Assembly (NCBI RefSeq): GCF_900079725.1
Contig: NZ_LT599032.1
Span: 1,704,209-1,768,208 of the forward strand
Source of the DNA: an uncultured Dysgonomonas sp.
Lineage (GTDB): Bacteria; Bacteroidota; Bacteroidia; Bacteroidales; Dysgonomonadaceae
Length of the DNA stretch: 64,000 bases
Direction of reading: 5' to 3'
The notes under the pieces: generated by a model
Told to the model about the DNA's origin: nothing
Database searches by the model: none
Seen by the model: only the letters and a program-made list of their open reading frames with translations
Shown: positions 41,657-62,929 of the stretch, in pieces
Layout of the letters: each line of letters opens with the position of its first letter
How positions within the stretch are numbered: the stretch's first letter is position 1
Position numbers and translations under genes: made by a program

Positions 41657-42934
41657 CTACCGGGAATCCCTTTTCGGCATCGGGATACTCAATGGCTTTT
41701 GTCTTTTCAGCATTTTAGACGCTTCCCCTGTAAGCCAGAGATAATGATCGGATGGTACTCCGTCCAACCCTACGAACTTAGCGATATCACTTACCGGAGG
41801 GTTGTCGCTGCATTTGAATATTGCCGTCCCTTCATTTACCTCATCGAACATAGCCGCATAGATCATACCGGCGCCCGCATTGATAGCAGTAGATATCTGC
41901 TGCCAATAAAAACGTCCCCCTTGGCGTGGTATAGACCCGGAGGGCTTTATATCATCGGGAAACTCAAAGCGGCTGAGATTATGCCAACTGAATCCCGGAG
42001 TCACACAAGGCACATAATCGATATTGTTATTTTTACACCACTCCATATCACCTATTATCAGGTCGCGGAAACGGTCCATATCGTTATGCAAAAGCGGTGT
42101 AAAGCGCTGGACAGTCCAAGGAAGAACGATGTCGGCCTGTTTGATTATCGTATGTAAATAGGGGTCCGGTATACAATCGGCAGTCAGTTCACGCCAAAAT
42201 GTAGGTACCCCCAGCATAACGCTGCATCCGCCATATTCCGGATCGTTTTTCAGGAAGTCGATGAAACGTTCTATGCCTATATTACGGATATTATAAGGTC
42301 TGTCAGGGAACCCGATACCCCAAATGGCGACAAGAGGTTTCCCGTTGAAAAATAAATATGTCTGATTTCCTTTCTGGTTTGTCACCCTTATGGAATCTAC
42401 AAGGTACTTCCAGTCCTCTATCAGGCTGGAACAATCTTCTCCCGATCTTTTCAGTCCCGACAAATCATACATAACAGCTATCGCACGCTGATATTTAGAC
42501 GCAGCCTCAAACGCGTTTCTGATTACAGCGGTCGGAGCTTCCTTCCTGGCTTTTGCCTGAGCAGAACCGAAGAAACGCTGCATAAACACACCGTCTACAC
42601 CATATTCCTGCATCCATTTGAAATGCAAATCTATTGTGCTCTTGTCCGTAGAACTGAAAAAGCGGGCTGTGGAACCGTCCGCGTGCTTCAATCCCGTAGG
42701 ATATGTCTTTTCATACTCGCTCACATCCGGCCACATATCTATGCGGACTTGTTTTTCATCGGGATACATCACTCCATCGGCCGGCGCCCTGAACCATCCC
42801 TGATAACCTGCCATAATCAGTCCTTTATAGCTTGGATACTGTGTCTTAACTGAGTGTTTGTATGTCTGAGCAGTAATCTTAGTCATAAAAAGACAGGATA
42901 AGATTATCACAGACAGAATAATTCGCTGATTCAT
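41657..42934 (-). CDS. Secreted GH99/GH71-like glycoside hydrolase (first copy)
   Basis: 425-residue exported protein (signal peptide about residues 1-22). It has the same layout as the later gene at 59.7 kb: KGLIMAGYQGWFRAPADG near the N-terminus, HFKWMQEYGVDGVFMQRFFG, IAVMYDLSG, KPLVAIWGIGF, MLGVPTFWREL and the C-terminal MFDEVNEGTAIFK. Glu365 and Glu368 in that last motif resemble the paired acids of GH99/WbsX-type (beta/alpha)8 enzymes and are candidate catalytic residues. Related families cut alpha-mannans (GH99) or alpha-1,3-glucan (GH71); the substrate here is unproven. It follows GH95 by 54 nt on the minus strand. Confidence 0.78.
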   Translation of the reverse strand: MNQRIILSVIILSCLFMTKITAQTYKHSVKTQYPSYKGLIMAGYQGWFRAPADGVMYPDEKQVRIDMWPDVSEYEKTYPTGLKHADGSTARFFSSTDKSTIDLHFKWMQEYGVDGVFMQRFFGSAQAKARKEAPTAVIRNAFEAASKYQRAIAVMYDLSGLKRSGEDCSSLIEDWKYLVDSIRVTNQKGNQTYLFFNGKPLVAIWGIGFPDRPYNIRNIGIERFIDFLKNDPEYGGCSVMLGVPTFWRELTADCIPDPYLHTIIKQADIVLPWTVQRFTPLLHNDMDRFRDLIIGDMEWCKNNNIDYVPCVTPGFSWHNLSRFEFPDDIKPSGSIPRQGGRFYWQQISTAINAGAGMIYAAMFDEVNEGTAIFKCSDNPPVSDIAKFVGLDGVPSDHYLWLTGEASKMLKRQKPLSIPMPKRDSR

Positions 42935-42988: not shown

Positions 42989-45430
42989 CTATTTCAGGCC
43001 TCTCTTAAATGTATATGCCTGCCCTTGCCGTGTATCCACGTCATACTCATATATCTTATACAGCAACGGATACTGAGCATTTATCTCTTTGGAGACCAGA
43101 GGTTCCTTTATTTGTGCAGTTCCGTACAGCGGGTTTGGATTTACTCCCTTAGCCTCCGACAGTCCCGCACCTGTCAATGGCACGTAAGAACGCAGGCGCA
43201 TATTCCCGCCCAATTTAGATAATACCGAAACAGTCAGAAGTTCCCCGTTGTCCCACTCCATAGAAACTTCGAAACCGCCGCGAGCCATCAGCCCTTTCAC
43301 TGCGCCCTTTTTCCATGCATCGGGCAGGGCAGGAAGCAGATGGAGCGCTCCATCGTGGCTTTGCAATAACATTTCGGCCACTCCGGCAGTGAACCCGAAA
43401 TTACCGTCGATCTGGAAAGGCGGGTGCGCGTCGAACAGGTTCGGATATGTACGCCCGTCGTTATTCCCCGGTTCTACAAGCGATAACATATTGGATATAA
43501 TCTTATATGTATGGTTTCCATCCAGAAGGCGTGCCCAGAAGTTTATTTTCCAGCCTATCGACCACCCCGTAGCCATATCGCCACGGTAAAGCAACGAATT
43601 CTTTGCTGCCTGAAACAATGCAGGATGCGAATAAGGAGATATCTGGTTGCTCGGATACAACCCATACAGATGCGACACATGGCGATGGTCATTCTTTGGG
43701 TCGTCTACGTCATCGAGCCACTCCTGTAACTGATTGTATTTGCCTATCTGCATAGGGGCAAGACGCGAAATCATATCTTCCAGTCTTCTTTCATATGCAT
43801 TATCGGCCAGTTGCAAAGCCCTGGATGCGTTCAATGCATCACTCAGTACATCAAATACTATCTGGTTGTCCATCGTAGACCCGGCCGTGATGCTTGTCCC
43901 CGTTCCCGGAGGGCCTTGTTCGGGCGAAGAGGAAGGAGCCGATACCATCCATTTATATTTCGGATGCTCTACAAGAAAATCCAGAAAGAAATCAGCCGCA
44001 CCTTTCAGTACAGGATACACTTCGCTCAGGAATGTCTTATCGCCTGTATATAGGTAATGCTGCCACATATGCCGGCTAAGCCATGCCCCGCCGTTAGGCC
44101 ACATCCCGTAAAAAGCACCGTCTACAGGTCCGGTCGTACGCCAGATGTCCGTATTGTGATGCGTAACCCATCCGTTGGCATTGTACATTACTTTTGCTGT
44201 CTCTTTCCCCGTTTCGGCTATTTCTTTCACCATTCCGAACAACGGAAAATGTGTTTCGCTAAGATTGGTCACCTCGGCAGGCCAGTAATTCATCTCGGTA
44301 TTGATATTGATAGTGTACTTGCTATCCCAGGGTGGTACAAGCTGATCGTTCCATATACCCTGCAATGTCGAAGGCTGACCTCCCGGTTGTGACGAACTGA
44401 TAAGCAAATAGCGTCCAAACTGGAAAAGCAGTGTAACAAGGTTTTGGTCTTTACCATCCTTAAAGTTCCGCACACGGCTATCGGTTTCGTCGTTCATTCT
44501 TTCGGAAGTACCCAGATCCAGCTCAACCCGGTTAAACTGATTCTGATAATACTTTATATGGTCGTTCAGCGCAGTCTGATACGGTTTAGCCAGCGCGGAC
44601 TTCAATATTGCTCCTGCTTTTCTGGTCTCGTTACCGCTTACATTCTTATAGTCTATAAAATTGGTCGCGATGGATATGTATATTGTCGCTGTATTTGCAT
44701 TTTTCACAACGATATTATCTTTTCCGGCTTTTACCGTTCCGCCTTCTGTTTGTATTTCAGTCTGATTTTCGAATCTTACCACACCCTTTACGCCTTCATG
44801 ATCAGAGCCTGTACCTTTCAGCACCAGCCTGTTGCCCTTTGCCGATATGGCATAACCTTTCACCGGAGAATCATATGACGCGGAGAAGTTGATACTGTTC
44901 TCCTTATCTGCCGTAATACGCATGATAATCACATTATCGGCAAACGAAGTGAAAACTTCACGGGTATATGTTACACCATCTACAGCGTACCGGGTAGTTG
45001 CTACCGCCGTTTTTAAATCCAGATTGCGTGAGTAATCCGAGAAATTGTCATGTCCGGCGAAGTCAAGATACAAGTTTCCGATTGTCTGATACGGCATGCC
45101 GTTGTGAGGCGTCCGCATCGTTTTGTCCAGTAATGCCTCTGCCTGCTTTTCTTTCCCTGCAAAAATAAGATTCCTTACTTCATCCAACGAACCCAGCAAA
45201 GCGGGGCTATCGTTCCGGTGCGGGCCTCCGCCCCACATTGTTTCTTCGTTCAGTTGCAGGCGCTCCCGGGCCGGGCTGCCAAAAACCATCGCTCCCAACC
45301 GTGAGTTTCCTAAAGGAAAGGCTTCTACCCATTCTTTTGCGGGACGTTTATACTGTAATTTGATATCACCGGCCTGAACGGTAAGGATGCTCAGCGCCAA
45401 AAACATGAATAATCCGAATCTCTTTCTCAT
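42989..45430 (-). CDS. GH95 family alpha-L-fucosidase-type glycosidase
   Basis: 813-residue exported enzyme with signal peptide (SILTVQAG). The GH95 layout is complete. An N-terminal beta domain ([39 protein letters not shown]) is followed by an (alpha/alpha)6 catalytic barrel with [34 protein letters not shown] carrying the probable acid Glu and [12 protein letters not shown], then a C-terminal domain with [19 protein letters not shown]. Known members remove alpha-1,2-fucose or alpha-L-galactose. It is the first gene of the minus arm and probably co-transcribed with the GH99/71-like gene. Confidence 0.92.
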
Positions 45431-45547
45431 GGTGTTATTTTAAGTATTGGTTATTTCCCGGGACAAAATAAAGCCAGGGGTATTAACAGGAGAGTTAAAA
45501 ACGTATTAATATAATATTAAAATAGAACCTGGTATTTTATTTAGAGT

Positions 45548-45774: not shown

Positions 45775-48351
45775 TCAATCTTCGATATTGTTCCGGCTTA
45801 TCACATCGGTAAGGGAGTACTTATATTTCGAGCCCAGCAGATTATAGTATTCTTTACAGAAATTGTCATAAATGCTTTTCGCAATTCCTTTCTTACCCGA
45901 ATTGAACAATATAGAGCATTTGAGGTATAACGCTTCTTCATTTATATAATCGTGGAGGAATAAAGTATCGGCAATCTTAAGTTTCAGGTCATCAGTGAGC
46001 TTATAATAATTGCTCTGTGATAGTTCCGTCAATATATCTATCGTCATATTAGAAAAATCACTTTTGAATCCGTCTACCCAGTCAGCTTCTGTGTTTGGTA
46101 ACAATACTCCCCTAAGCAATAGTTCGAGCAGCCTGTCTATATTCGTCTGATCGGGTGAAGCATTTTCTTTTATTATACCAAATAACCGCATGGCCTCTGT
46201 ATAATCACACATGATACCTTCATTCAATTTTATACTCCAAAAGCCGTTTTGGTTTATAATCTCTGCATTCCCTACATTTTCGAGTATTGCACGCAATTTA
46301 CTAAGATAGACGTTTCTGTTGTTCTTAGCAGACTCTTCATTCTTATCGAACCAAAGCAACTGAATCAGCTTCTTCCCCGATATACCTTTTTCATCCCTCT
46401 CTGTACTAAGAATGAGCAACACCAACAGGTATTTCAGCATCGGCGTAAACTGGCCTGTTATATTCTGCCCATTTTTATCCATTACCAGAAAGCCTCCAAG
46501 AAAACAAACCGATCGTCGGGAGAAATCATAATACTGAACTTCAGGCTCCTTCGCTTTTGCCTCACTTACAGCAGGTACTATAATTCGCTGAGATGGAGCC
46601 ATTATCTTTTTTCCGGTTTTTCTTTTAAATGTTCCACTTCTAATTAAAAAATAGATCGGAAGAATAAGCACAAATATAAGCCCCAGAGCTATTACTACAA
46701 TCATCCACATGGAAGATGGCGAAGCCGGCTCCTCTATTGGCTGAGTAACCTGTATCTCGCTTAGAGCGATTGGCGGATAATTAAGTGAATAGATCGCAAC
46801 TTCGGCTGACTTATCTGTTTTTATTTTATTTATCAATACATAAAATTTATTATCGGCCTTGGAATAATATAGCTTCATATATAAATAGTGAGCCGTGAGA
46901 TCTTCGTGTATAGGAAAAGACATAGCCTCAAAGCCGGCAACATCTTTCTTAAGCCTCATTAATGTGCCGCCATTCTGGCTTGTAAATACATAAAAACAAT
47001 CTTCTTTTTCATCATAAATCATATTCTCACCCGGAAGAAATTCCAACTCGGGTGCCGGAGTCTCCATTTCCCACAGTTTATTTGTCTGTTCTGTCAGGAG
47101 ATTAACCGAATAAAAGTCGTAATAATTGCGGGGAGATAATTCCTGGCGCCCTGTTTTATTACCCCATCCTCCATAGATATACAAAGTATTGTTTACAATA
47201 ACGGTTGAGGAAGAATGCCGGGGGGAAATATCGGGCAAAGTAGACTTTTTTATAGATTTCCGGCTTGGGTCTAAACGGAGTAATTCATTGTTATATTTAT
47301 AAAAGCCATAACCTCCAAAAGACACCAATGAAGAATCGGAAGGCGAAAAAGAAACTGAGTTATTCCAATAGGCATGTTCCAGAAGCGATTTTGTATTATT
47401 TTCCCACGATTCGGAAACCGGATTGAATACGGATACTATGTTCTCGTCGAGATTATAGGATAACAGCTTGTTCGAAACAGGGTTGTAGAATAACTGATTA
47501 GGGGCATTGGCAGCTATTATTCCGCTTTTCACAGCTATTACATTTTCTTTCCTTTTATCGGCATCGAAAGTGATAAGCTCTTTAGAATCGGGGGAAGCAA
47601 TATAAATTATCCCCTGATTCGGATTGAAGGCAAACAGTGAATTCTCTTTAATATGCTTCGAATAGATCTTTTCCCAAGTTGCATAAATATCGATTATCCA
47701 TCGTGGATTTGTAACTACTGCCGGTACCTGGGCTACAGAGTCGGGACTGTGTTTTTCATCGTGTTTCTCCAATTTCCAGTGCCTCTGCAGATTTTTACCA
47801 TTGAATATTTTTACATCCCGGATATTCACCGATGCTATATCATATAACATATATCCTTCAAATGGACATAGACCAAAAGAGACTTTCACCTCATTGGCAT
47901 GTGATATCTGGTAAGGGACAGATAACTTAGTCTCCCCATACAATACAGTGATTTCATTTTTCTCTGACGATAACGTTATACTTACCGGTAGCCATTCATC
48001 GCAGATTATTTCTTTGGAAATCATATAGACAGATTCATTTACCACAAGCATCGGATATCGTTTATCTCCCTCACCCACTGTAAATAACAAGTCTATATTT
48101 TCTTTCTTATCGGTAATCATCCTGAACACGACCCCAAACACATTGTCTTTGCGCACGCTCATATCAAATGTCATGGTTGTCTCATTGTGCAGCCTGATCG
48201 GTTGGTTATTCTCCAGTATCAGTGATGTTTTTTCCTGATCATTGAACGGGAATGACTTTATATATAAACCATAATCTATACTATCAGGTTGTGCAGCATT
48301 GATTAATACTGACAAAAAGAGAAATAAAATAGTAGAGAAGAGTTTTTTCAT
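45775..48351 (-). CDS. Single-chain membrane sensor-regulator: Kelch-like sensor, one TM helix, winged helix plus BTAD (SARP-like)
   Basis: 858-residue protein that appears to combine sensor and transcription factor. After a signal peptide (residues 1-20) comes a concanavalin-like beta region (about 30-200). A Kelch-type beta-propeller follows (about 225-535) with FSPSDSSLVSFGGYGFYKY, SSSTVIVNNTLYIYGGWGN and similar blades. One membrane helix spans about 548-571, followed by a basic stop-transfer KRKTGKK. The cytoplasmic part has an OmpR/SARP-type winged helix (about 605-705: QFTPMLKYLLVLLIL, SGKKLIQLLWFDKNEESA, NRNVYLSKLRAIL) and a bacterial transcriptional activator domain (about 720-850). 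It lies between the two arms of the polysaccharide locus and is the likely regulator. No kinase domain is present. Confidence 0.8.
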   Translation of the reverse strand: MKKLFSTILFLFLSVLINAAQPDSIDYGLYIKSFPFNDQEKTSLILENNQPIRLHNETTMTFDMSVRKDNVFGVVFRMITDKKENIDLLFTVGEGDKRYPMLVVNESVYMISKEIICDEWLPVSITLSSEKNEITVLYGETKLSVPYQISHANEVKVSFGLCPFEGYMLYDIASVNIRDVKIFNGKNLQRHWKLEKHDEKHSPDSVAQVPAVVTNPRWIIDIYATWEKIYSKHIKENSLFAFNPNQGIIYIASPDSKELITFDADKRKENVIAVKSGIIAANAPNQLFYNPVSNKLLSYNLDENIVSVFNPVSESWENNTKSLLEHAYWNNSVSFSPSDSSLVSFGGYGFYKYNNELLRLDPSRKSIKKSTLPDISPRHSSSTVIVNNTLYIYGGWGNKTGRQELSPRNYYDFYSVNLLTEQTNKLWEMETPAPELEFLPGENMIYDEKEDCFYVFTSQNGGTLMRLKKDVAGFEAMSFPIHEDLTAHYLYMKLYYSKADNKFYVLINKIKTDKSAEVAIYSLNYPPIALSEIQVTQPIEEPASPSSMWMIVVIALGLIFVLILPIYFLIRSGTFKRKTGKKIMAPSQRIIVPAVSEAKAKEPEVQYYDFSRRSVCFLGGFLVMDKNGQNITGQFTPMLKYLLVLLILSTERDEKGISGKKLIQLLWFDKNEESAKNNRNVYLSKLRAILENVGNAEIINQNGFWSIKLNEGIMCDYTEAMRLFGIIKENASPDQTNIDRLLELLLRGVLLPNTEADWVDGFKSDFSNMTIDILTELSQSNYYKLTDDLKLKIADTLFLHDYINEEALYLKCSILFNSGKKGIAKSIYDNFCKEYYNLLGSKYKYSLTDVISRNNIED

Positions 48352-48439: not shown

Positions 48440-48521
48440 AACTAAAAGATTTTAGTTTTCCGATAAATCATCTATTTTTAGTCTCATTCTTTTAAAATAA
48501 AGAATATTAATCTTATTTTAA
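48440..48521. promoter_or_regulatory. Two palindromes in the divergent regulator/GH3 promoter region
   Basis: AACTAAAA-GA-TTTTAGTT (48440-48457) is perfect, and TTAAAATAAAGA (48492-48503) pairs with TCTTATTTTAA (48511-48521) with one bulge. Both lie in the 255-nt gap between the divergently transcribed regulator and GH3 genes. A near -7 TTATTTTG for GH3 lies at 48568-48575. Confidence 0.4.
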
Positions 48522-48606
48522 CCGGTACATTAATGTTTGATTTCAACTTTTATTAATGCCTTTTGCTTTATTTTGTATTTAATAAATATCCTAAAAAATC
48601 TTTATC

Positions 48607-50823
48607 ATGAAAACTAAGGCACTCTTGCTTCTCATTCTTTTCGCATTTTCGGGCAATCTGATATTCGGCCAGTTGTATCCTTTCCGGGATACAAAACTAT
48701 CTACAGACAAACGGGTATCTGATCTGGTATCCCGTCTGACTTTAGAAGAAAAGGTATTGCAAATGCTCAACAATACCCCGCCTATAGAACGACTTAATAT
48801 CCCGGCTTATAATTGGTGGAACGAATGCTTGCACGGCATTGGCCGCACAGAATACAAAGTTACTGTTTTTCCCCAAGCTATAGGAATGGCTGCTGCATGG
48901 GATACCAGATTACTAAAAGATGTAGCAAATGCTATTTCTGACGAAGGGCGTGCAATATACAATGATGCTTCGGCAAAAGGGAACTATTCTATATACCATG
49001 GTCTGACATATTGGACACCCAATGTAAATATATTCCGTGACCCACGCTGGGGACGCGGACAAGAGACATATGGCGAAGACCCTTACCTGACAGGGGCTTT
49101 AGGCAAATCATTTGTCGCCGGACTGCAAGGTGACGATTCCAAATATCTAAAAGCAGCCGCCTGCGCTAAACATTATGCTGTACACAGTGGTCCGGAGAAT
49201 ACTCGTCATACATTTAACACATTTGTAACCACATTCGACTTGTGGGATACGTACCTTCCGGCATTCCGCGATTTGGTTGTAGATGCCAAAGTTGCAGGTG
49301 TGATGTGCGCATATAATGCTTATAGCGGAGAACCTTGTTGCGAAAACAATCTGCTAATGCAGGAAATATTGAGAGACAAATGGGGCTTTACAGGATATGT
49401 AACATCCGATTGCGGTGCTATCGACGATTTTTACCGTCATCATAAAACACACCCTGAGGCTAAATACGCTGCTGCCGACGCTGTATACAGCGGAACTGAC
49501 ATCGACTGTGGAAACGAAGCTTACAAAGCCCTTGTAGATGCCGTGAAAACCGGGCTAATTACAGAGGAACAAATAGATATATCTTTAAAGCGCCTATTCG
49601 AAATACGTTTCAGACTGGGGATGTTCGATCCCGCAGAAGATGTAAAATTTTCAAAAATTCCACTTTCGGTACTGGAATCACAACCTCATAAGGATTTAGC
49701 CCTTAAAATAACCAGAGAATCAATCGTATTATTAAAGAATGAGAATAGCTTTCTGCCGCTAAGTAAGAAGTTGAAGAAAGTAGCTGTCATCGGACCTAAT
49801 GCAGATAATGAAGTATCAGTCTTGGGCAACTACAATGGCTTCCCTACCCAGATAACAACTCCTTACAAAGCGATTAAGAACAAGCTGAAAAATGCAGAGG
49901 TGACTTACGAAAAGGGCATTGACTTTGTAAAACCTTCGGAAAACAGCAAAGAAGAAATCTCAGCTCTGGCCAAACGTTTGAAAGGAATGGACGTAGTTAT
50001 ATTTGCAGGAGGTATATCTCCGGAACTGGAAGGTGAAGAAATGCCTGTCAAAATAGAAGGATTTACGGGAGGTGACCGTACCAGCATAAAACTGCCGAAA
50101 ATACAGACAGAACTGATGCAGGCTTTAAAAGCAGAAGGAATACCGACTGTCTTTGTTATGATGACGGGAAGTGCAATCGCCGCCGAATGGGAATCACAAA
50201 ACGTACCTGCAATATTAAATGCCTGGTATGGAGGACAAGATGCGGGAACAGCCATTGCCGACGTCCTTTTCGGGGATTATAACCCTTCGGGAAAATTACC
50301 TGTGACATTCTATGCAAAAGATAGTGACCTTCCTGCATTCAATTCTTATGAAATGAAGAACAGAACCTATCGTTATTTTGACGGACAAGTACTTTATCCA
50401 TTCGGTTATGGATTAAGTTATACCAAGTTTGAATACTCCCCGATACAAACCCCTGCAAGTATAAAAGCAGGTGAAAATATGGAAGTTTCCGTTACTGTAA
50501 AAAACACAGGAAAGACAGATGGAGAAGAAGTCGTCCAACTCTATATATCCCACGACAACAACGGGACAAACAGACAATTACCGTTATATGCACTGAAGAG
50601 CTTCGAAAGAATTTCCCTGAAGGCGGGAGAAAGTAAAATTGTAACCTTCAAACTCTCGCCAAAAGAAATGGCCCTGGCAGACGAAGATGGTATATTGAAA
50701 ATGACTAAAGGAAAAAACAAACTATATATCGGAGGAACTTCTCCTACAAAAACAAGTGCGGAAAAATTACCTCTTGTAGAAACTCAGTTCGAAATAACAG
50801 GGAATGATTATATAATTGATTAA
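48607..50823 (+). CDS. GH3 family beta-glycosidase (beta-glucosidase/xylosidase type)
   Basis: 738-residue exported enzyme (signal peptide ending IFGQ). The N-terminal barrel has LTLEEKVLQML, IPAYNWWNECLHGIGR, FRDPRWGRGQETYGEDPYL, AKHYAVHSGPE and the nucleophile Asp268 in GYVTSDCGAIDDFY. The (alpha/beta)6 sandwich (LKKVAVIGPNADNEVSVLGNY) and a C-terminal Fn3-like domain (NTGKTDGEEVVQLYISHD) follow. The ENTRHTFNT and SGTDIDCG details are more like beta-xylosidase or related GH3 clades than typical beta-glucosidases. It is probably periplasmic and removes terminal beta-linked sugars from imported oligosaccharides. Confidence 0.92.
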   Translation: MKTKALLLLILFAFSGNLIFGQLYPFRDTKLSTDKRVSDLVSRLTLEEKVLQMLNNTPPIERLNIPAYNWWNECLHGIGRTEYKVTVFPQAIGMAAAWDTRLLKDVANAISDEGRAIYNDASAKGNYSIYHGLTYWTPNVNIFRDPRWGRGQETYGEDPYLTGALGKSFVAGLQGDDSKYLKAAACAKHYAVHSGPENTRHTFNTFVTTFDLWDTYLPAFRDLVVDAKVAGVMCAYNAYSGEPCCENNLLMQEILRDKWGFTGYVTSDCGAIDDFYRHHKTHPEAKYAAADAVYSGTDIDCGNEAYKALVDAVKTGLITEEQIDISLKRLFEIRFRLGMFDPAEDVKFSKIPLSVLESQPHKDLALKITRESIVLLKNENSFLPLSKKLKKVAVIGPNADNEVSVLGNYNGFPTQITTPYKAIKNKLKNAEVTYEKGIDFVKPSENSKEEISALAKRLKGMDVVIFAGGISPELEGEEMPVKIEGFTGGDRTSIKLPKIQTELMQALKAEGIPTVFVMMTGSAIAAEWESQNVPAILNAWYGGQDAGTAIADVLFGDYNPSGKLPVTFYAKDSDLPAFNSYEMKNRTYRYFDGQVLYPFGYGLSYTKFEYSPIQTPASIKAGENMEVSVTVKNTGKTDGEEVVQLYISHDNNGTNRQLPLYALKSFERISLKAGESKIVTFKLSPKEMALADEDGILKMTKGKNKLYIGGTSPTKTSAEKLPLVETQFEITGNDYIID

Positions 50824-50916: not shown

Positions 50917-51258
50917 TAACGTCTCTAATCTATATTATCCAATATACAAGAAGCCGCAAACATAATATTTTATTATATCTTTATTATCCGTACTTATTTC
51001 GTCATTAGCTATAGAAGAGAAATTTTGAACACCTAATCTTAACAAACTTACATATATTAATATCAATAAACTTTAATGAAATACCGTGTCTGGTTTAATT
51101 ACTATTTCTCACTATTTAATTTACTTCCGGATTCAAAAACATTTGTTATCTTCTGAATTAATGAAACCCTTATGAATAAAAGGTTTAAAAGCCTAAATTA
51201 TAGAAATTTTAATGGCTCTGTTAATGTTATTTTTAGAAAAATATTAATATGTGTTATA
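50917..51258. other. Gene-free AT-rich interval before the DUF4988-SusC leader
   Basis: I see no supported ORF, RNA gene or repeat here. It is very AT-rich and lies between the GH3 hairpin and the -7 element at 51259. Confidence 0.5.
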
Positions 51259-51266
51259 TAAATTTG
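51259..51266 (+). promoter_or_regulatory. -7 element of the DUF4988-SusC-SusD operon
   Basis: TAAATTTG is a full TAnnTTTG match with no clear -33. It predicts a leader of about 270-360 nt depending on the start codon used, long enough to hold regulatory structure. Confidence 0.45.
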
Positions 51267-51459: not shown

Positions 51460-51555
51460 ATGAATAATAATTCCAGGGAAAAATACAAGCAAAAAACAGC
51501 CTGTTTTGGGCTAATAAAATCTTGTTTTTCAGAAACTACTAAAAATGAAAAATAA
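51460..51555 (+). CDS. Possible 31-codon upstream ORF in the operon leader
   Basis: ATG at 51460 opens 31 codons (MNNNSREKYKQKTACFG at its start) and stops at 51555, overlapping the first possible start of the DUF4988 gene (51545) by 11 nt. It has no homologue I recognise and could be fortuitous. If translated it might couple to or compete with the downstream start. Confidence 0.2.
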   Translation: MNNNSREKYKQKTACFGLIKSCFSETTKNEK

Positions 51556-51584
51556 AGATCTCACAACTAAAGTTATCACTTCAC

Positions 51585-51644
51585 TTAATCCTTATTTATC
51601 TATGAATAAACCATTTAATCCCTATTTATGTATGAACAAACGAT
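51585..51644 (+). repeat. 30-bp tandem duplication around the DUF4988 gene start codons
   Basis: Units 51585-51614 and 51615-51644 match at 26 of 30 positions. In protein terms this repeats NPYL-x-MNK-x-F, so the gene has two equivalent in-frame ATGs at 51602 and 51632. Confidence 0.75.
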
Positions 51645-53362
51645 TTTTAAATTTGCTCCTATGTGGAGTCATGATTTTTTCAACAGGTATTTTCTCATCA
51701 TGTGGAGACGACGTCGATGACCTGAAATCAAGAGTATCTGTATTAGAAGTGGCAATTGCTGATCTCAAAGAGCAACTGTCGAATGCAATGACAACCGGTG
51801 CAACTATCGTAAAAGTAGAAGAAAAAGACGGCACCTATACTTTAACTTTGAGTGATGGAAAAGTTATTACAATTAAACCGGGTACCAGTGGCGGGTCAAA
51901 TATTACTGTAGAAAAAAATGAAAATAATATAATTATTACTGTGGATGGAACTGAATATGTACTACCTATTGGTTCGGCCGTAAACTCATTAATCTACAGT
52001 CCTGAAACTATCGACGGTATTGTCAATATTGGTAATACTGGTGCTAATGTGAATTTCCTGGCTACACCGGCTATCAGTTCCGGTGACTTGGCGAATGCTA
52101 CGTTTGCCATTGCGGAAGCTCACCAACTGAAAGCAGGTGGCAATGACATGTTCAAGGTTGACGGTGATGCAACTATTGAGGGCGATTTCATTAAAGTACA
52201 CCTTAAAGCTCTTGGAGTAGAAGCGGGTAAAACATATGCTGTGGCACTCCAAATGAACTTCAACGGTACCGCTATCAGTTCCAACTACTTTATGGTAAAA
52301 GTATCTGACGACTTCTCCTTCAACAGTGAAGAAATTGGAGGTTTTACAATAAAAGCGGCCTACAACCCCAAATCTCTTGAAAATGGTTTCAGTGAAATGA
52401 CCATCAATGGACTTGATCTACTGAAAGTTACCAACTTCAAAGATTTATTTGACGAAATTCCTGCCAATGCAGTATTCTCTGTAGCCGGTAAAAGTGTGCA
52501 ACCCGGAGGTTCAGCTCAGGAAAGATGGGATGCACTTAACAAAAATTTGTCTCAAGATGGAGCTTGGGCTATGAAAACAAGATTGGGTACAAGTTTTAAT
52601 GACAATGCGGATCGGAAAGGATTCTTATTCAATATAAAAGCGAATGACGTAGTGAAGGCAAAAATTTACGTTATTATTAACGATGAGCTTGCAGGTATTG
52701 ATTTTTCTGGTCAGTTTACTAAAGAGGCAGAAGCAGAATGGGGTGGACGCGAAAAAAGTCTAGCTATGGGTGCTCAGACTATTAATATACAAAAAGGATT
52801 TACAAATTACGAAACAGACTATACGATTATTCATGGCGGTGCTGCTGAATTCTTTGCCAAATGGGCTACTTTCGAAGTGAAGAAGGGCGATGACCTTCTG
52901 GTTTACAACGACGGTTCAAAATTAGTACTAGGTAACATTGCTAAGGAATACGCAACTGGTTGCCGCGGCCTGTATTGGTTCTATCGTGGTTTTGCCATCT
53001 ATGTACCCGAAGCATTAGCAACAACTAATGGAAAATATGTAGATGTAAATGGTAAGGAATATGACGGCGCCGGTGGTTATGGTTATGATTTCTGGTTGGG
53101 CCAATATGATGAATATATCAATAATCCTTCGACATTCTATCCTCCTGCAGTTACTAACTTTGGCATAACTATCGATGCAACAAACGGTTCGGTTACACTT
53201 CCGGCCTCTTATTCAGGCTATGGATTCCGTATTGGGATTGGTGCTGGTTACGAATATGCCTATGGTGTGAAGAAAATCGGTTCGGCAGACCAACTCGGTT
53301 TGTTCTTCTTCAACCGTCGCTTGGCTCCCGAAGGTGCAACAATGCCTGCACCTCAATCATAA
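51632..53362 (+). CDS. DUF4988-type surface lipoprotein of the polysaccharide locus
   Basis: 576 residues from the ATG at 51632, which gives a proper lipoprotein signal (MNKRFLNLLLCG, lipobox GIFSSC). Earlier in-frame ATGs at 51602 and 51545 would push the signal too far in. After the lipid Cys comes a coiled-coil segment (DDVDDLKSRVSVLEVAIADLKEQL) and two short beta repeats (YTLTLSDGKVITIKPG, IIITVDGTEYVLPIG), as in DUF4988 proteins. The rest is beta-rich with a Gly/Tyr-rich C-terminus. It is probably a surface glycan-binding or adhesion protein serving the SusCD pair 120 nt downstream. Confidence 0.72.
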   Translation: MNKRFLNLLLCGVMIFSTGIFSSCGDDVDDLKSRVSVLEVAIADLKEQLSNAMTTGATIVKVEEKDGTYTLTLSDGKVITIKPGTSGGSNITVEKNENNIIITVDGTEYVLPIGSAVNSLIYSPETIDGIVNIGNTGANVNFLATPAISSGDLANATFAIAEAHQLKAGGNDMFKVDGDATIEGDFIKVHLKALGVEAGKTYAVALQMNFNGTAISSNYFMVKVSDDFSFNSEEIGGFTIKAAYNPKSLENGFSEMTINGLDLLKVTNFKDLFDEIPANAVFSVAGKSVQPGGSAQERWDALNKNLSQDGAWAMKTRLGTSFNDNADRKGFLFNIKANDVVKAKIYVIINDELAGIDFSGQFTKEAEAEWGGREKSLAMGAQTINIQKGFTNYETDYTIIHGGAAEFFAKWATFEVKKGDDLLVYNDGSKLVLGNIAKEYATGCRGLYWFYRGFAIYVPEALATTNGKYVDVNGKEYDGAGGYGYDFWLGQYDEYINNPSTFYPPAVTNFGITIDATNGSVTLPASYSGYGFRIGIGAGYEYAYGVKKIGSADQLGLFFFNRRLAPEGATMPAPQS

Positions 53363-53482: not shown

Positions 53483-56400
53483 ATGAAAGATAGTAACTCA
53501 AAAACATATGGAAAAAGCGCGTCAGCCTCATGGAGGTTCATTACAGTCGCGTTTTTATGCCTCCTAGTGGCATTGCCTGCTTCAGCGCAGCTCCGGATGG
53601 TTCAGGGAATCGTCGTTGACGCCCTAGAAGAACCAGTCATCGGAGCCACTGTAACAGTCAATGGAAACGCTACCCGTGGTACAATGACCGACTTAGACGG
53701 TACTTTCAAAATAGAGGCATCGAAAGAAGAAAAGCTGACAATTTCATTCATTGGCTATCAGACAGTTGTGGTAACAGCTGATAAAACTGATCTGAAAATC
53801 ACCTTACAGGAAAACAGCAAGGAATTGGAAGAAGTAGTCGTTGTAGGCTATGGCACACAGAAGAAAGTAACACTGACAGGTGCCGTTTCGGCGATAAATA
53901 GTAAAGAAATCGCTGTTACTAAGAATGAGAATGTAGTCAATATGCTTTCCGGTAAAATACCAGGTGTGCGCATCTCGCAGAATAGTTCGGCTCCCGGCGA
54001 TTTTGATAGTAAAATTGACATCCGTGGTATGGGCGAACCTCTGATCGTAGTCGATGGAATTCCCCGTGATAAAGGATACTTTTCCCGTATGGATGCCAAT
54101 GAAATAGAAAGCGTATCCGTACTGAAAGATGGTACGGCAGCTATTTATGGTGTTCGTGCCGCCAATGGCGTTATTCTGGTTACAACCAAGCGTGGTGATT
54201 CCACCAACGGTAAGTTTGATATCACGTTTTCTGCCAATTTAGGCTGGCAACAGTTCCTCTATGTACCCGAAACATCAAGTGCAACAGATCATATGTTGCT
54301 TACCAACGAAAAAAGATACAACGATTTTAACAGCAACTATCCTATTCGCACTACTCCTCAATATACATGGGAGGAAATGCTTGAATACAGCACAGGCCGC
54401 AAAAAAAGTACCAACTGGAACGATGAGTTGTTCAAGAACAATGTGCCGCAGTCGCAATACAACATCAGTATGGATGGAGGATCGGATAAAGTGAAGTATT
54501 TCTTCAATCTGGGCTACATCAAACAAGAAGGCGCCTACAGAAGCGGTTCTCTGAATTACGACCGTTGGAACTTCCGTAGCAACGTTGATGCACAAATTAC
54601 CAAGCGTCTGAAAGCCTCTGTGCAGTTGAGTGGTTATATGGATGAAAAGAACCAGCCGCTCACCGACATATGGACAGTGTACAAAAAAGCATGGAGCTAT
54701 CGCCCAACGGCCGAAGCATGGCTGGATGGCGATCATAGTATGCCTGCTTTCAACGAGCAAATGCCGGTAGCAGGTTATATGGACAATCCTGTAGCTCAAA
54801 CCAACAGTGATTTTGCCGGTTTCCGCCGCGAAAAGCGTAATAACTTCAACGGCTCTTTGGCGTTGACTTATGATATTCCTGGAGTAGAAGGATTGAATGC
54901 AAAAGCATTCTATAGCTACGATTATTATTCTACAAATAATACGGAATACAAACGTACCCATAATCTATATCAACGGTTGGGTAATGGGGCTATAGAGCCT
55001 ATTGTTCAGAATGCTGACAGTTATCTGAGACGCCGCACCGATCCGGCTTATGGAACAGTAATGCAATTATCATTGAACTATGCCCGTAAATTCGGTGACC
55101 ACAACATCAACGCTATGGTGCTGTTCGAGGAGCAATACAATAACTATGACAACTTCTACGGGCAGCGCGATATGCTTCTCGATGGTGAATACCTTATTTA
55201 CGGTGAAGCCGAAGGCCAAACCGCATTTTCCGACGGTGGCGGCATTTGGGATGTAGTTCGTCAAGCTGTGGTAGGAAGGGCGAATTATGACTACAAAGGC
55301 CGTTATATAGCAGACTTTGCTTTCCGTTACGATGGATCATCACGTTTTCCGTCCGGATCACGTTGGGGATTCTTCCCTACCGCATCTCTAGGGTGGCGCA
55401 TCAGTGAAGAACCATTTATGAAAGAATGGATTCCATTCTTAAACAACCTTAAGCTGCGTGGATCTTACGGACGAATGGGTGACGATGGTGGCGCAGGCAA
55501 TTATCCTCCTACGGTAGTCGGTTATGAACTGAATGGTAGAAAGCTCGGTTGGATTTATAACGGAGCTCTTATGGGCGGATTAACGCCCACGGCTATCCCC
55601 AATCCTGACTTGACATGGTACACCATAGACACTTGGGACTTTGGACTTGACTTCGACCTCTGGAACTCGAAATTGACAGGAACATTCGATGTATTCAAAC
55701 GTAGCCGGAACGGACTGTTAGCAAGAAGTACATCCGTTATTCCGGGTACGGTAGGAGCTTCCATGCCTTTAGAAAATATCGAAAGTGATGAAACATTCGG
55801 ATGGGAAATCAGCCTGGGACATAATAACAAGATAGGCGACATTACATATTGGGTAAATGGACAGATTTCGGCTACAAAGAATCGTTGGGACTATAAGATT
55901 GATTCTCCGGCACAAAACTCTATGGAAAATTGGCGCCGGTGGCAAACATCGGGTCGTAACAAAGACATCTGGGCTACCTACGTGGAAGGAGGACGCTTCA
56001 GCAGTTACGATCAAATCCGTTATCACAACACCACCGGAGGCAATTACGGACAGGGTTCACTACCGGGCGACTACTGGTACGAAGACTGGAATGGAGATGG
56101 AGTAATCAACCATCTGGACGAACATCCGGTGGCCACATACAACCTTCCGGTATTCAATTATGGAATCACCATGGGAGCTACATGGAAGGGTGTAGACATT
56201 TCGATGAACTGGCAAGGCTCAGCAGGTGTATACAATCAATATACTGAAGTATTTGCCGAAGTAGGTGCATTCGGGGGTGCTATACTGGATATCTACCAGG
56301 ACCGTTGGCATACGGCTAATGCGACAGATGACCCATGGAATCCAAATACCCAATGGGAAGAGGGGCTATATCCGGCCACAGGCAGACCTTTTGGTTCAGG

Positions 56401-56674
56401 CACCACAGGTATTAAAAATACTTCGTATATACGTCTGAAAACATTGGAAGTAGGCTATACACTACCCAAACCCTTGATTAGCAAAATGGGTATCAAAAAC
56501 GTTCGCGTATATCTGAATGCCTATAACCTATTGACGATAACAGGACTGGACAACATCGACCCTGAACGTCCGGGTGCTAAAGGAGGATCCAATAATAATG
56601 ATGAGCAAGGTGTTTTATTTTATAATTATCCGGTGAACCGCACCTTCAATGTAGGTGCTACAATTAAATTCTAA
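53483..56674 (+). CDS. SusC/RagA-family TonB-dependent outer-membrane transporter
   Basis: 1063-residue importer of large glycans. After the signal peptide (ending PASAQ) come a carboxypeptidase regulatory-like domain (VQGIVVDALEEPVIGATV, about 38-115), the SusC signature EEVVVVGYGTQKK, a plug domain (LSGKIPGVRIS, IDIRGMGEPLIVVDGIPRD, AANGVILVTTKRG) and a 22-strand barrel ending in VNRTFNVGATIKF. It lacks the N-terminal STN signalling domain, so it should not control an anti-sigma factor. The SusD partner follows immediately. Confidence 0.95.
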   Translation: MKDSNSKTYGKSASASWRFITVAFLCLLVALPASAQLRMVQGIVVDALEEPVIGATVTVNGNATRGTMTDLDGTFKIEASKEEKLTISFIGYQTVVVTADKTDLKITLQENSKELEEVVVVGYGTQKKVTLTGAVSAINSKEIAVTKNENVVNMLSGKIPGVRISQNSSAPGDFDSKIDIRGMGEPLIVVDGIPRDKGYFSRMDANEIESVSVLKDGTAAIYGVRAANGVILVTTKRGDSTNGKFDITFSANLGWQQFLYVPETSSATDHMLLTNEKRYNDFNSNYPIRTTPQYTWEEMLEYSTGRKKSTNWNDELFKNNVPQSQYNISMDGGSDKVKYFFNLGYIKQEGAYRSGSLNYDRWNFRSNVDAQITKRLKASVQLSGYMDEKNQPLTDIWTVYKKAWSYRPTAEAWLDGDHSMPAFNEQMPVAGYMDNPVAQTNSDFAGFRREKRNNFNGSLALTYDIPGVEGLNAKAFYSYDYYSTNNTEYKRTHNLYQRLGNGAIEPIVQNADSYLRRRTDPAYGTVMQLSLNYARKFGDHNINAMVLFEEQYNNYDNFYGQRDMLLDGEYLIYGEAEGQTAFSDGGGIWDVVRQAVVGRANYDYKGRYIADFAFRYDGSSRFPSGSRWGFFPTASLGWRISEEPFMKEWIPFLNNLKLRGSYGRMGDDGGAGNYPPTVVGYELNGRKLGWIYNGALMGGLTPTAIPNPDLTWYTIDTWDFGLDFDLWNSKLTGTFDVFKRSRNGLLARSTSVIPGTVGASMPLENIESDETFGWEISLGHNNKIGDITYWVNGQISATKNRWDYKIDSPAQNSMENWRRWQTSGRNKDIWATYVEGGRFSSYDQIRYHNTTGGNYGQGSLPGDYWYEDWNGDGVINHLDEHPVATYNLPVFNYGITMGATWKGVDISMNWQGSAGVYNQYTEVFAEVGAFGGAILDIYQDRWHTANATDDPWNPNTQWEEGLYPATGRPFGSGTTGIKNTSYIRLKTLEVGYTLPKPLISKMGIKNVRVYLNAYNLLTITGLDNIDPERPGAKGGSNNNDEQGVLFYNYPVNRTFNVGATIKF

Positions 56675-56690
56675 CATGAAAGGGCAGAAT

Positions 56691-58703
56691 ATGAAAACAT
56701 TCAAATATATATGTATAGCAGCGTTGGTACTCACCATGGGCTCCTGCTATGACATGGATCTGGAACCAAAAGGAATCATTGGAGAAAATGTCCTGTTGAC
56801 TTCCGACAATGGTATCAAAAAGTATTTCGCTGTCACTTATCAGGACCTTCCTATCGAAGACTTTAACTATAATCATACAGGGTCTGATGGTAACGGGAAG
56901 GGATATGCAACCGTCAATCAGGATGGTTGGCATACTGGCAATAAATGGACAGCACAGAAGGGCAGCCCGGCTTCAGCCGCTCTCGAAGCCTTAGGCCGCG
57001 GTACATCTTATGGTGATGGTTGGGGATATTGGCCTTACGACCGTATCCGTGATATCAATAATTTTATTCAGGTTTTTCCTAACTATAGAGATAGTTATTC
57101 GACCGAAGAAGAATATAATTCTTACCTGGGTGAAGCTCATTTCCTGCGTGCGTTTTATTATTTTGGAATGGTGAAACGCTATGGCGGAGTACCTATTGTA
57201 AAAGAAGTTCTGAACCCGACTGCAGGCGACGCATTGCTACAACCACGCAATACAGAGTACGAATGCTGGAAGTTCATCTACGAAGATCTGAAGTTTGCTA
57301 TGGAAAATGCTGCAGATAGAAGCAAGTATGAGCCAGGTCGCGCCAATCGCTATGCTGCTGCAGCCCTGATGTCCCGTGCTATGTTGTATGCCGGATGTGC
57401 TGCTAAATATGGCGGCTACATCAACGTAAGTGGTCCCGCCGTCAGCAGTGGACTGATGAGTATTCCTGCAGATAAAGCAGAAGAATTTTTCCAATATGCA
57501 TACGATGCTTGTAAGTTTATTCAGCAAGGTGGCTATACTCTGCATGGAGCAGGCGCCGCCGATGCTGCTGCCAAAGAAAAAGCGTATGTAGAAGTCTTCT
57601 TGAATGATAATAAAGCTGACGAGGACATTTTTGTGAAACAATATACGGCTGTGGCTGATGCCATTTGGGATACTAGTTTATTCCATTGCTGGGACGGAAT
57701 GGTATTACCTTTGAGTATGATTGGCGGAGGAGCAGCAGGAGCTGCTTTGCAACCGACATGGGAACTCATGAAATTGTATGAAATGCCTGCCATCATCGAC
57801 GAAGATGGCAAACCGGTTCGTTTCGACAGTCCCGAAGAGCTTTGGAATAACGGAGAAATGGAAGCTCGCTGCCGTGCCAATTTCTACTTCACCGGAATGA
57901 CTGAACCAGGCTCCGGCAAAAAAACCGACATCCAGGCTGGTGTTTATACAGAATATCCGGGAACAGCCGCTGACGGCACTGCCGAAATTGGAGGAAGCCG
58001 CAATGACTATACAGACAAATATCGTATCAGGGCCCAGCGGGCAGGCGAAAGTCGGAATATTGGAGGTAAAACAGTAAGAGTAAGCGGACAGGACGGCTTG
58101 GGCGAAGGCCTCGGAGACGAAGGATATACCCGTTCGGGAGCGTTTATTCGTAAATATACAGACCCTTCGGCCGCTGCTGCCAGCCGTGTATTGTTCGGCA
58201 GTAAACAACCTTGGAAAGTATTCCGCTATGGAGAAGTGCTTTGCAATTGGGCAGAAGCCGCTTATGAGTTGGGCACGCTGAAAAATGACAACAACCTGAA
58301 GAAAGAAGCATTCGTATATGTGAATCAGATCCGTTTACGTGCCGGGGCTCATCCTCACGAAATGGTAGCCAATCCGGAAGATATAGGTACATCACTCTAC
58401 GGATTCGCTATCGACGAAAACCTGAAATATATCCGTGACGAACGCGCTCGTGAACTATGCTTTGAGAACCACCACCTTTTCGACCTACGTCGTTGGAGAG
58501 TGGCCGATGTAGATTTCCTTAACGGAAAATTCGGACATACCTTACTCCCTTATTATGTACTGAACGAAGACAAATGGATATACCTGAACGAGGTAGAGAC
58601 CATAGCCCGTACAGTGACATTCGAAAGAAGATGGTATTATGAACAAATACCGGGTGGAGAAATAGGGAAGAATCCGAATTTGGTACGTAATGATGGTTAT
58701 TAA
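56691..58703 (+). CDS. SusD/RagB-family outer-membrane lipoprotein
   Basis: Surface lipoprotein that caps the SusC channel and binds glycan. The start at 56691 gives MKTFKYICIAALVLTMGSC with a lipobox; Met codons at 56676 and 56655 are alternatives, the last overlapping susC. The family features include AHFLRAFYYFGMVKRYGGVPIV, the TPR-like helical core, and the C-terminal IRDERARELCFENHHLFDLRRW. At about 670 residues it is long for the family, with extra insertions (for example MVLPLSMIGGGAAGAALQP). susC ends 16 nt upstream. Confidence 0.93.
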   Translation: MKTFKYICIAALVLTMGSCYDMDLEPKGIIGENVLLTSDNGIKKYFAVTYQDLPIEDFNYNHTGSDGNGKGYATVNQDGWHTGNKWTAQKGSPASAALEALGRGTSYGDGWGYWPYDRIRDINNFIQVFPNYRDSYSTEEEYNSYLGEAHFLRAFYYFGMVKRYGGVPIVKEVLNPTAGDALLQPRNTEYECWKFIYEDLKFAMENAADRSKYEPGRANRYAAAALMSRAMLYAGCAAKYGGYINVSGPAVSSGLMSIPADKAEEFFQYAYDACKFIQQGGYTLHGAGAADAAAKEKAYVEVFLNDNKADEDIFVKQYTAVADAIWDTSLFHCWDGMVLPLSMIGGGAAGAALQPTWELMKLYEMPAIIDEDGKPVRFDSPEELWNNGEMEARCRANFYFTGMTEPGSGKKTDIQAGVYTEYPGTAADGTAEIGGSRNDYTDKYRIRAQRAGESRNIGGKTVRVSGQDGLGEGLGDEGYTRSGAFIRKYTDPSAAAASRVLFGSKQPWKVFRYGEVLCNWAEAAYELGTLKNDNNLKKEAFVYVNQIRLRAGAHPHEMVANPEDIGTSLYGFAIDENLKYIRDERARELCFENHHLFDLRRWRVADVDFLNGKFGHTLLPYYVLNEDKWIYLNEVETIARTVTFERRWYYEQIPGGEIGKNPNLVRNDGY

Positions 58704-58732
58704 TGGAAATAAATGAACTAAAATACTTGAAT

Positions 58733-59479
58733 ATGAAAAAAGTAATATATAGTCTGCTTGTGGGTGTCTCAGCTCTGTTAGCTACTTCGTGTATGGAGGT
58801 TGACAACTTTGATGAACCCAATGCCCATTTCACCGGACGTATTATAGATTCGACTACAGGCCAGAATATTCTTGCGGATCAGGGTGAAAATCGTGTTCGC
58901 ATCTGGGAAAAGAGTTACAGTCTAAATCCCGCTAATCAGGATATCCCTGTGAAGCAGGATGGAACTTTCAATAACACGAAACTCTTCAAAGGTACTTATG
59001 ATGTAGTTCCCGAAGGAGCTTGGTGGCCTTGCGATACGATACGGGTAGGTATTGGAAAGAAGTTAGAACAAAATTTTGAAGTGACCCCTTATCTGACAAT
59101 GTTTGATTTCCAAATGGAGTATGTCAACGATTCACTAACAATGTCGTGCCGTTTCGACGCCCCTATCAAAGCAGGTCTACCCAATATCAGGGATATCAGG
59201 CCGTTTCTTAGCTTGAATCAATTCTGTGGTGCCGGCAATTCGATCAGTTATTATAACACTCCGGAGGATGCTAATGGTGATCCTCTTTATTGGAAAAGCA
59301 TCATGTCAAGCTGGGCCAACATACCTAAGCTACAAGATGGAAAGAGTCAGGTTTATAGCTTTAGGCTACCTGTTAAACCTGGTTATATTTATTTCGCCCG
59401 CATGGGTGCCAGAGTAAATGATACTCAACAGAAATATAATTATACAGAGATCAAAATGATTGAAATCCCGAGTAAATAA
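58733..59479 (+). CDS. DUF3823-type lipoprotein downstream of SusD
   Basis: 248-residue lipoprotein with lipobox LLATSC. The N-terminal DUF3823 region is visible in HFTGRIIDSTTGQNILAD, VRIWEKSYS and FKGTYDVVPEGAWWPCDTIRV, followed by a second beta domain (LTMFDFQMEYVNDSLTMSCRF). Such proteins sit at the SusE position after SusD and are probably surface glycan-binding accessories. The ORF is open to an ATG at 58703 that overlaps the susD stop, but the Met at 58733 gives the correct signal peptide. A terminator follows. Confidence 0.82.
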   Translation: MKKVIYSLLVGVSALLATSCMEVDNFDEPNAHFTGRIIDSTTGQNILADQGENRVRIWEKSYSLNPANQDIPVKQDGTFNNTKLFKGTYDVVPEGAWWPCDTIRVGIGKKLEQNFEVTPYLTMFDFQMEYVNDSLTMSCRFDAPIKAGLPNIRDIRPFLSLNQFCGAGNSISYYNTPEDANGDPLYWKSIMSSWANIPKLQDGKSQVYSFRLPVKPGYIYFARMGARVNDTQQKYNYTEIKMIEIPSK

Positions 59480-59519
59480 AGGTACTATAAGGTGATTTAA
59501 ATTATTCTCAAAATGTTAC

Positions 59520-59563
59520 CGGGAGGGCTGACATAAAGAAAACAGACTCCCTCCCGTTTTTTT
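59520..59563 (+). terminator. Terminator after the SusC-SusD-DUF3823 genes
   Basis: CGGGAGGG (59520-59527) pairs with CCCTCCCG (59549-59556) over a 21-nt loop and runs straight into seven T. Confidence 0.82.
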
Positions 59564-59693
59564 ACTTTTTACAATGGTTCGTTATTAAACAGGGTAAATG
59601 ACCGACTCCAAACAAACAATAAAAAGCACTTATAGATCAACAGTTTGTAGCTATTTATCCACAATTTATAACAAACTAATATTTACAATAAAG

Positions 59694-61211: not shown

Positions 61212-61216
61212 AACTT

Positions 61217-62874: not shown

Positions 62875-62929
62875 AAGGCTTAATTCTCTATTCATTTTCT
62901 AATAAATCGATCGAATTAAGTCTTTTTTT
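62875..62929 (+). terminator. Terminator after the GH43 gene
   Basis: AAGGCTTAATTC (62875-62886) pairs with GAATTAAGTCTT (62913-62924, one G-T pair) over a 26-nt loop and ends in a T-run. Confidence 0.75.

Follow-up and report, generated by a model that had tools for sequence, protein, structure and literature searches.

A predicted membrane-anchored Kelch-SARP regulator and a candidate TTAA-array operator at glycan loci of a Dysgonomonas sp. and its relatives

In the parts of the literature on which we draw here, glycan sensing in Bacteroides is described as the work of HTCS, SusR-like and ECF/anti-sigma systems (PMC3878776). The same parts of that account describe SusR-like regulators as SusCD-linked membrane proteins with a periplasmic sensor and a cytoplasmic DNA-binding part, whose predicted repeats are spaced at 67 or 77 bp, and give an average distance of 21 bp between the predicted repeats of HTCS (PMC3878776). 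For SARPs, the cited sections of a further account report direct repeats at a spacing of 11 or 22 bp, the 3' one being 8 bp away from the -10 element, and AfsR SARP units that dimerise on adjacent 11-bp repeats over the -35 element while holding region 4 of sigma (PMC10936776). Among the literature matches listed, a set in which few subscription journals were covered, there was no account of a Kelch-SARP or of a membrane SARP in Bacteroidota. Here, we report a single-chain protein encoded in a window of 64,000 nucleotides (the whole stretch of DNA analysed) from an uncultured Dysgonomonas sp., which is probably a SARP activator of glycan loci that is anchored in the membrane and works as a one-component system, and not a SusR, HTCS or ECF/anti-sigma system.

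The regulator gene occupies 45778..48351 on the minus strand, with its stop codon at 45775-45777, and encodes 858 residues from an ATG start (ORF and AF2 model), which agrees with the one ORF that an earlier note on this DNA had read at 45775-48351; the protein features that follow are all on the same strand. The AF2 model of the full-length protein (mean pLDDT 82.9, pTM 0.58) begins with a helix at residues 2-17 and continues as an all-beta part to about residue 215, a propeller to about 529, a membrane helix at 545-571 and a second folded unit. By hydropathy and this model helix, the N-terminal hydrophobic stretch (residues 1-20, 48292..48351) fits the signal peptide claimed earlier, and we call it signal-peptide-like. 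Residues ~25-215 (47707..48279) form an all-beta domain by secondary structure and pLDDT, largely confident in the model; of the concanavalin-like region proposed for this protein, the beta structure stood and the likeness to concanavalin is kept as a possibility. The propeller at residues ~221-529 (46765..47691) is assigned by Pfam, VIA and Foldseek: Kelch_6 and Kelch_3 both exceed their Pfam cut-offs, the other Pfam matches of the ORF are of Kelch type save for one weak, chance-like match, and residues ~221-530 of the full model align to Kelch propellers in VIA with a best Z of 20.7, in line with the Kelch-like extracytoplasmic region that had been claimed. The single membrane helix lies at residues 545-571 (46639..46719; model and hydropathy) with its hydropathy maximum at residue 552, close to the 548-571 of the earlier reading. 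In the window protein and 23 homologues (24 of 24 sequences), lysine and arginine are more numerous in the 15 residues that follow the hydrophobic core of this helix than in those that precede it, and this C-terminal excess predicts, with good support, that the SARP unit is cytoplasmic and the propeller outside. Against this topology, a further hydrophobic window occurs in nine of the 24 sequences, though the window protein is not among them.

The second folded unit consists of an OmpR/SARP-type winged helix (residues ~614-709, 46225..46512) and a BTA-like helical domain (residues ~716-852, 45796..46206), both assigned by structure and profile comparison. Modelled alone from 20 sequences, the unit reached a pLDDT of 91.7, and in the comparison with SARP folds that the earlier note had proposed, the sole PDB chains below a Foldseek E of 0.001 were six, all AfsR or EmbR (E 2.5e-8 to 5.3e-6). 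VIA placed the AfsR and EmbR matches at Z 14.1-14.8 across 230-241 residues, and the next match reached Z 10.1 over 69 residues only. In hhalign, 24 regulator sequences matched a profile of four Bacteroidota SARP proteins, taken from four of the five loci recovered by the Pfam BTAD model, at 97.8% (E 8e-13, 214 columns) in an alignment that spans the winged helix and the BTA part together; three unrelated window proteins gave 0.2-0.8%, these controls being single sequences and the SARP target a four-row profile. At the sequence level, Pfam, NCBIfam and PDB searches gave no above-threshold match to the C-terminal domain: Trans_reg_C appeared below its Pfam cut-off in nine of the 24 sequences (best E 0.044), and Pfam BTAD, never above its curated cut-off, was listed for one of the 24 (E 0.21), for which reason we speak of a distant SARP-like protein and not of a Pfam BTAD member. 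The cytoplasmic winged helix and BTAD that had been read from the sequence are nearly invisible to Pfam and are borne out by model structure and profile comparison, which together support homology of the unit to SARPs and make the fold a well-supported prediction. When residues were mapped by hand at ungapped spacing, without an aligned AfsR sequence, W74, S91 and R94 of AfsR corresponded to W667, S684 and R687, and R87, T88, R92 and K95 fell on N680, V681, K685 and A688; under this spacing, T88 and R92, which contact bases in AfsR, have no identical counterpart. Against a single soluble TPR-SARP protein, L038, hhalign gave 96.5%. This regulator (L038:151-2283), from another Bacteroidota genome, has a Pfam BTAD match above the cut-off and no Kelch match, and may link the soluble SARPs to the Kelch-SARP family.

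The linker that follows the membrane helix (residues 571-603) is modelled with low confidence, which would suit a scheme in which sensing is followed by regulated proteolysis that releases the SARP part from the membrane as a soluble activator. We hold this to be unlikely; no intramembrane-protease family occurs in the Pfam matches of 20 window proteins, though this weighs little against it.

The regulator sits in a polysaccharide locus, as the earlier note had it. On the minus strand lie GH95 (42989..45430) and a GH99-like gene below the Pfam cut-off (41657..42934), which we predict to be targets together and which are conserved beside the regulator; on the plus strand are GH3 (48607..50823), also a predicted target, and a run headed by a gene for a DUF4988 protein (51545..53362), the predicted target there, followed by a SusC-like TonB-dependent receptor (53483..56674), a SusD-like protein (56655..58703) and DUF3823, GH99-like (below cut-off) and GH43-CBM6 genes (58703..62869), all identified by Pfam. 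The SusC-like receptor has no STN match at E up to 0.001 in Pfam, as had been noted. Past the window, the run of glycan genes continues with GH92, GH43, pectate-lyase-like, GH31, GH3, GDSL esterase and GH43 genes.

A candidate operator was first seen when the GH95 promoter of five loci and the regulator upstream region of six loci were aligned, revealing TTAA blocks spaced 11-12 bp and then a TTnnTTTG element, conserved in orthologues. Its general layout is one of TTAA direct repeats at 11-12 bp steps, 11 bp upstream of a TWnnTTTG (-7) element, and the -7 consensus reported in the cited part of one study is TAnnTTTG (PMC7366714). The GH95 promoter (45464..45520, minus strand) carries four TTAA boxes with steps of 11, 11 and 12 and a gap of 11 to TTATTTTG; the GH3 promoter (48507..48575, plus strand), in the divergent region between the regulator and GH3, carries four with steps of 11, 12 and 23 and a gap of 11 to the same TTATTTTG; and the DUF4988-SusC-SusD promoter (51209..51266, plus strand) carries three with steps of 12 and 23 and a gap of 11 to TAAATTTG, with an additional fourth TTAA box at 51185. 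In the whole genome, the first pattern had two matches, at the GH95 and GH3 promoters, and the reversed control none, the motif having been first noticed in two of the promoters on which it was later scored. The third site, at the DUF4988-SusCD promoter, was found by a general scan independent of the motif definition. A second pattern covering all three sites has four matches in the 5.2 Mb genome, every one in the gene run of the regulator; the fourth (G000:C1:1774966-1775022), which is 22 kb away from the regulator gene, precedes a GH3-GDSL-GH43 group. A three-box TTAA array at 62916 is without a -7 element and was not counted. Judged from sequence, the TTAA array is a new candidate operator.

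The arrays overlap the promoter, and the sign of control cannot be read from sequence, so the protein might instead be a repressor that is released by its ligand. We regard this as quite unlikely: AfsR, as described in the sections cited, activates from a comparable position (PMC10936776), and a TTTG in the -33 zone is found at none of the 54 sites identified across homologue loci, a weak argument because few would be expected by chance.

Those 54 sites come from the window and 60 homologue loci, 61 loci in all, of which 37 carry at least one, and the reversed sequences gave none. Their box steps are 11-12 and 22-24, and the gap, allowed to be 10-12, is 11 in 51 of them; the sites can be regarded as predictions with good support. 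Among 45 non-redundant loci, 23 have a site; with any gap from 2 to 30 allowed, the commonest value is 11 (28 cases), intergenic TTAA-TTAA distances peak at 11 (67), 12 (53) and 23 (54) over a base of ~12, and TTAA ranks first in periodicity among the 256 4-mers by our own measure. Twenty chosen regulator-free SusD loci of the same genome (398 kb) held no site and no comparable peak. A gene lies downstream in the stretch at 52 of the 54 sites, and 50 are within 400 nt of a possible start; the regulator is never that gene, so no self-control is predicted. The strict site is absent from 24 of the 61 loci (22 of the 45 non-redundant ones), including those of the own-genome copies L090 and L092. 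In L090, an array with a gap of 11 to TACCTTTA can be made out by eye, and a relaxed search of the 22 site-less non-redundant loci gave candidates in four, with the TTAA distance of 11 still in excess (31 vs ~8). L092, L096, L104, L108 and L109 form a divergent subfamily without the strict operator, in which a ~610-aa SusC-profile match lies directly upstream of the regulator.

Across 101 genomes of the family, there were 51 pattern matches vs five for the reversed pattern. A homologue lies no more than 500 bp away from 15 of the 51 (~0.03 expected) and no more than 25 kb away from 27 (~0.5 expected), the expectations being based on rough genome sizes. Eleven of the 15 near matches are promoters that defined the motif, and four are independent (G012, G024, G030 and G032 contig 100). 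Outside the family, three of 101 matches are within 500 bp of a homologue (two in G411, one in G482). Order-wide there is much background: the pattern matches 110 times in 295 genomes and its reversed form 61 times, and most of the pattern matches come from genomes that lack a homologue. Pure 11-bp TTAA arrays with the same -7 spacing occur order-wide in, among others, G375, G455, G467, G494 and G515, and resemble Pho-type boxes. In G503, an order genome of 3.4 Mb with six homologues, none of eight pattern matches lies within 5 kb of the listed homologues, and they look as if they were a regulon spread over the genome.

Related winged helices bind 11-bp direct repeats, and several of the order-wide matches are pure 11-bp arrays, so the TTAA arrays could be the boxes of another OmpR/PhoB-type regulator in a pure 11-bp register, with the Kelch-SARP protein acting elsewhere. 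We consider this very improbable, since step length sets Pho-type boxes apart as a source of the arrays (15 of 38 family matches with a step of 23 or 24 lie within 500 bp of a homologue, but none of 13 with a step of 22), the 20 other SusD loci are without sites, and the own-genome matches keep to the regulator's gene run.

The linkage of the Kelch-SARP protein to glycan genes extends to its homologues. Matches were found in at least 41 of 101 family genomes with query P0001, and, with a different query (profile A2), in at least 16 of 295 order-sample and four of 148 phylum-sample genomes at a minimum, own genome included in each tally; carriers include Dysgonomonas, Parabacteroides goldsteinii and Bacteroidales MAGs. 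The five copies in the own genome all lie 5.9-10.1 kb from a SusD match; 23% of random positions are no farther than 10.1 kb from one, so five of five would arise by chance at ~0.0006, a figure for which the distance was set at the largest observed. Of the 51 loci flanked by 6.5 kb or more on each side, no fewer than 37 have SusC/SusD genes within 6.5 kb, a lower bound because the home-made SusD profile matched only 33 times in the loci, and by that profile the other 14 have none within 6.5 kb. The survey of homologues suggested in the earlier note thus confirmed an association with SusCD genes for all own copies and these 37 loci, and did not extend it to the remaining 14. The 85 neighbouring ORFs in 15 SusC-less loci include GH92 (6), GH3 (3) and GH2 (3) besides unrelated families, and 74 neighbours elsewhere include CarboxypepD_reg (14), Plug (9), GH92N (7), GH95 (5) and GH3 (4), with regulator genes represented by HTH_18 (AraC-type, 4), Response_reg (3) and HisKA (2). 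A few homologues directly adjoin an HTCS- or AraC-type regulator gene, which, like the mixed neighbours of the SusC-less loci, speaks against the proposed role. Short contigs (L005, L006, L008 and L014) were left out of both neighbour scans; L017, whose regulator is in fragments, was left out of the protein alignments and L017:9998-10840 out of A7; L013 was left out of A3, L022-L025, under the structure rule, out of A1 and A3, and L113, whose match is a TPR protein, out of A5; L021 is the window itself and was dropped.

In four relatives (L001, L003, L094 and L100), the regulator, GH95 and GH99-like genes stay together. Comparison with L003 shows 91-98% identity for the regulator, GH95, GH99-like and GH3 genes of the window, yet 48% for SusC and 41% for SusD (53483-58703 vs L003:1572-6708); the SusCD transporter module has apparently been swapped around a fixed regulator/GH core, in a case of modular PUL swapping. 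This 91% relative also points to Dysgonomonas as the probable source of the window. The earlier premise that no other regulators are present fails, for a histidine kinase with a TPR match (39070-40872, plus strand) and a LytTR response regulator (40872-41627, plus strand), both found by Pfam, lie 4 kb from the regulator gene. That this pair or a distant regulator controls the locus, with the Kelch-SARP protein a bystander or a non-DNA-binding sensor, is the least probable alternative, given that the pair, also present in L003 at 91 and 98% identity, occurs in only that one of 15 loci compared, whereas regulator, GH95 and GH99-like genes are together in four, and that fold and operator evidence speak against it. 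The remainder of the earlier reading, an outside sensor, one membrane span, SARP output and a polysaccharide locus, is supported by structure, profile, topology and neighbourhood; on the two points where it could have failed, a BTAD or winged helix in the C-terminal part and glycan loci beside the homologues, the outcome was in its favour.

We propose that the periplasmic half of this Kelch-SARP activator (beta domain and Kelch propeller) would bind a glycan or fragment imported by the neighbouring SusCD, and that the signal would cross the single membrane helix and a flexible linker of ~33-42 residues, an anatomy that is predicted for a signalling step that we infer. Cytoplasmic SARP units, two or more side by side, may then bind the TTAA direct repeats of 11-12 bp period, which would occupy the place of the -33 element, 11 bp upstream of the -7 element, and bound SARP could recruit RNA polymerase to the GH95-GH99-like, GH3 and DUF4988-SusCD genes and to the distal GH3-GDSL-GH43 group; activation is the sign we infer because it is SARP practice. 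Arrays of three to five boxes beside the -7 element, together with a membrane-tied reader, suggest that ligand-driven clustering of the tethered chains would load the array. Given that the regulator, GH95 and GH99-like genes are constant in four relatives while SusCD varies, the presence of the operator may show which transporters the regulator has come to control. More generally, we lean towards a further class of PUL control, not recognised until now, in which membrane-tethered SARP activators with a Kelch glycan sensor, up to several per genome, would read TTAA arrays of ~11.5-bp mean period that replace the -33 element. Sequence would then allow the prediction of a signal path that runs from the periplasm to the promoter in one step, and of much of the regulon. 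If true, a membrane SARP fused to a Kelch sensor adds a direct route of glycan sensing, and SARP-type control extends beyond actinobacterial antibiotic genes, with an operator that can be read.

Among known systems, the nearest in logic is SusR, which shares the predicted topology of a periplasmic sensor and a cytoplasmic DNA-binding part; unlike SusR, the Kelch-SARP regulator has candidate repeats 11-12 bp apart, not 67 or 77. A SusR-like candidate of the same genome (L122:3969-5648), a DUF6377 protein whose membrane helix lies mid-chain, was chosen for its SusCD/GH31/GH97 context, and this one candidate had no similarity to the regulator (0.3% and 2.4%). HTCS are likewise single-chain, PUL-linked proteins with a periplasmic sensor, but Pfam at E up to 10 found no histidine kinase, receiver or AraC domain in the regulator. 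ECF/anti-sigma systems with a SusC partner also exert envelope-spanning control of SusCD loci, but no sigma or anti-sigma match was found in the regulator by Pfam, and the SusC of the window lacks STN. Regulators of the CadC/ToxR/TcpP type have a membrane-tethered winged helix with an N-terminal DNA-binding domain and, to our knowledge, no BTA domain; TcpP is among the VIA matches of the C-terminal model (Z 7.8, 95 residues), but the DNA-binding unit of the Kelch-SARP regulator is C-terminal and is joined to BTA. As in the SARPs AfsR and EmbR, the winged helix precedes an all-helical BTA domain; in the ungapped mapping, W74, S91 and R94 of AfsR have counterparts at the same spacing, and the candidate sites, direct repeats about one helix turn apart and just upstream of the core promoter, would resemble the layout reported for SARPs, their steps being 11-12 and 22-24 bp and their gap to the -7 element 11 bp. 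Unlike AfsR and EmbR, the regulator is predicted to be membrane-anchored, its SARP unit is C-terminal and a Kelch sensor replaces the STAND and FHA modules; and unlike AfsR of Streptomyces, it belongs to a Bacteroidales host, with a candidate TTAA half-site, a -7 TWnnTTTG promoter and a score below the Pfam BTAD cut-off. Its newness would lie in being SARP-like by fold and probable ancestry, yet membrane-tethered, with another sensor and another role.
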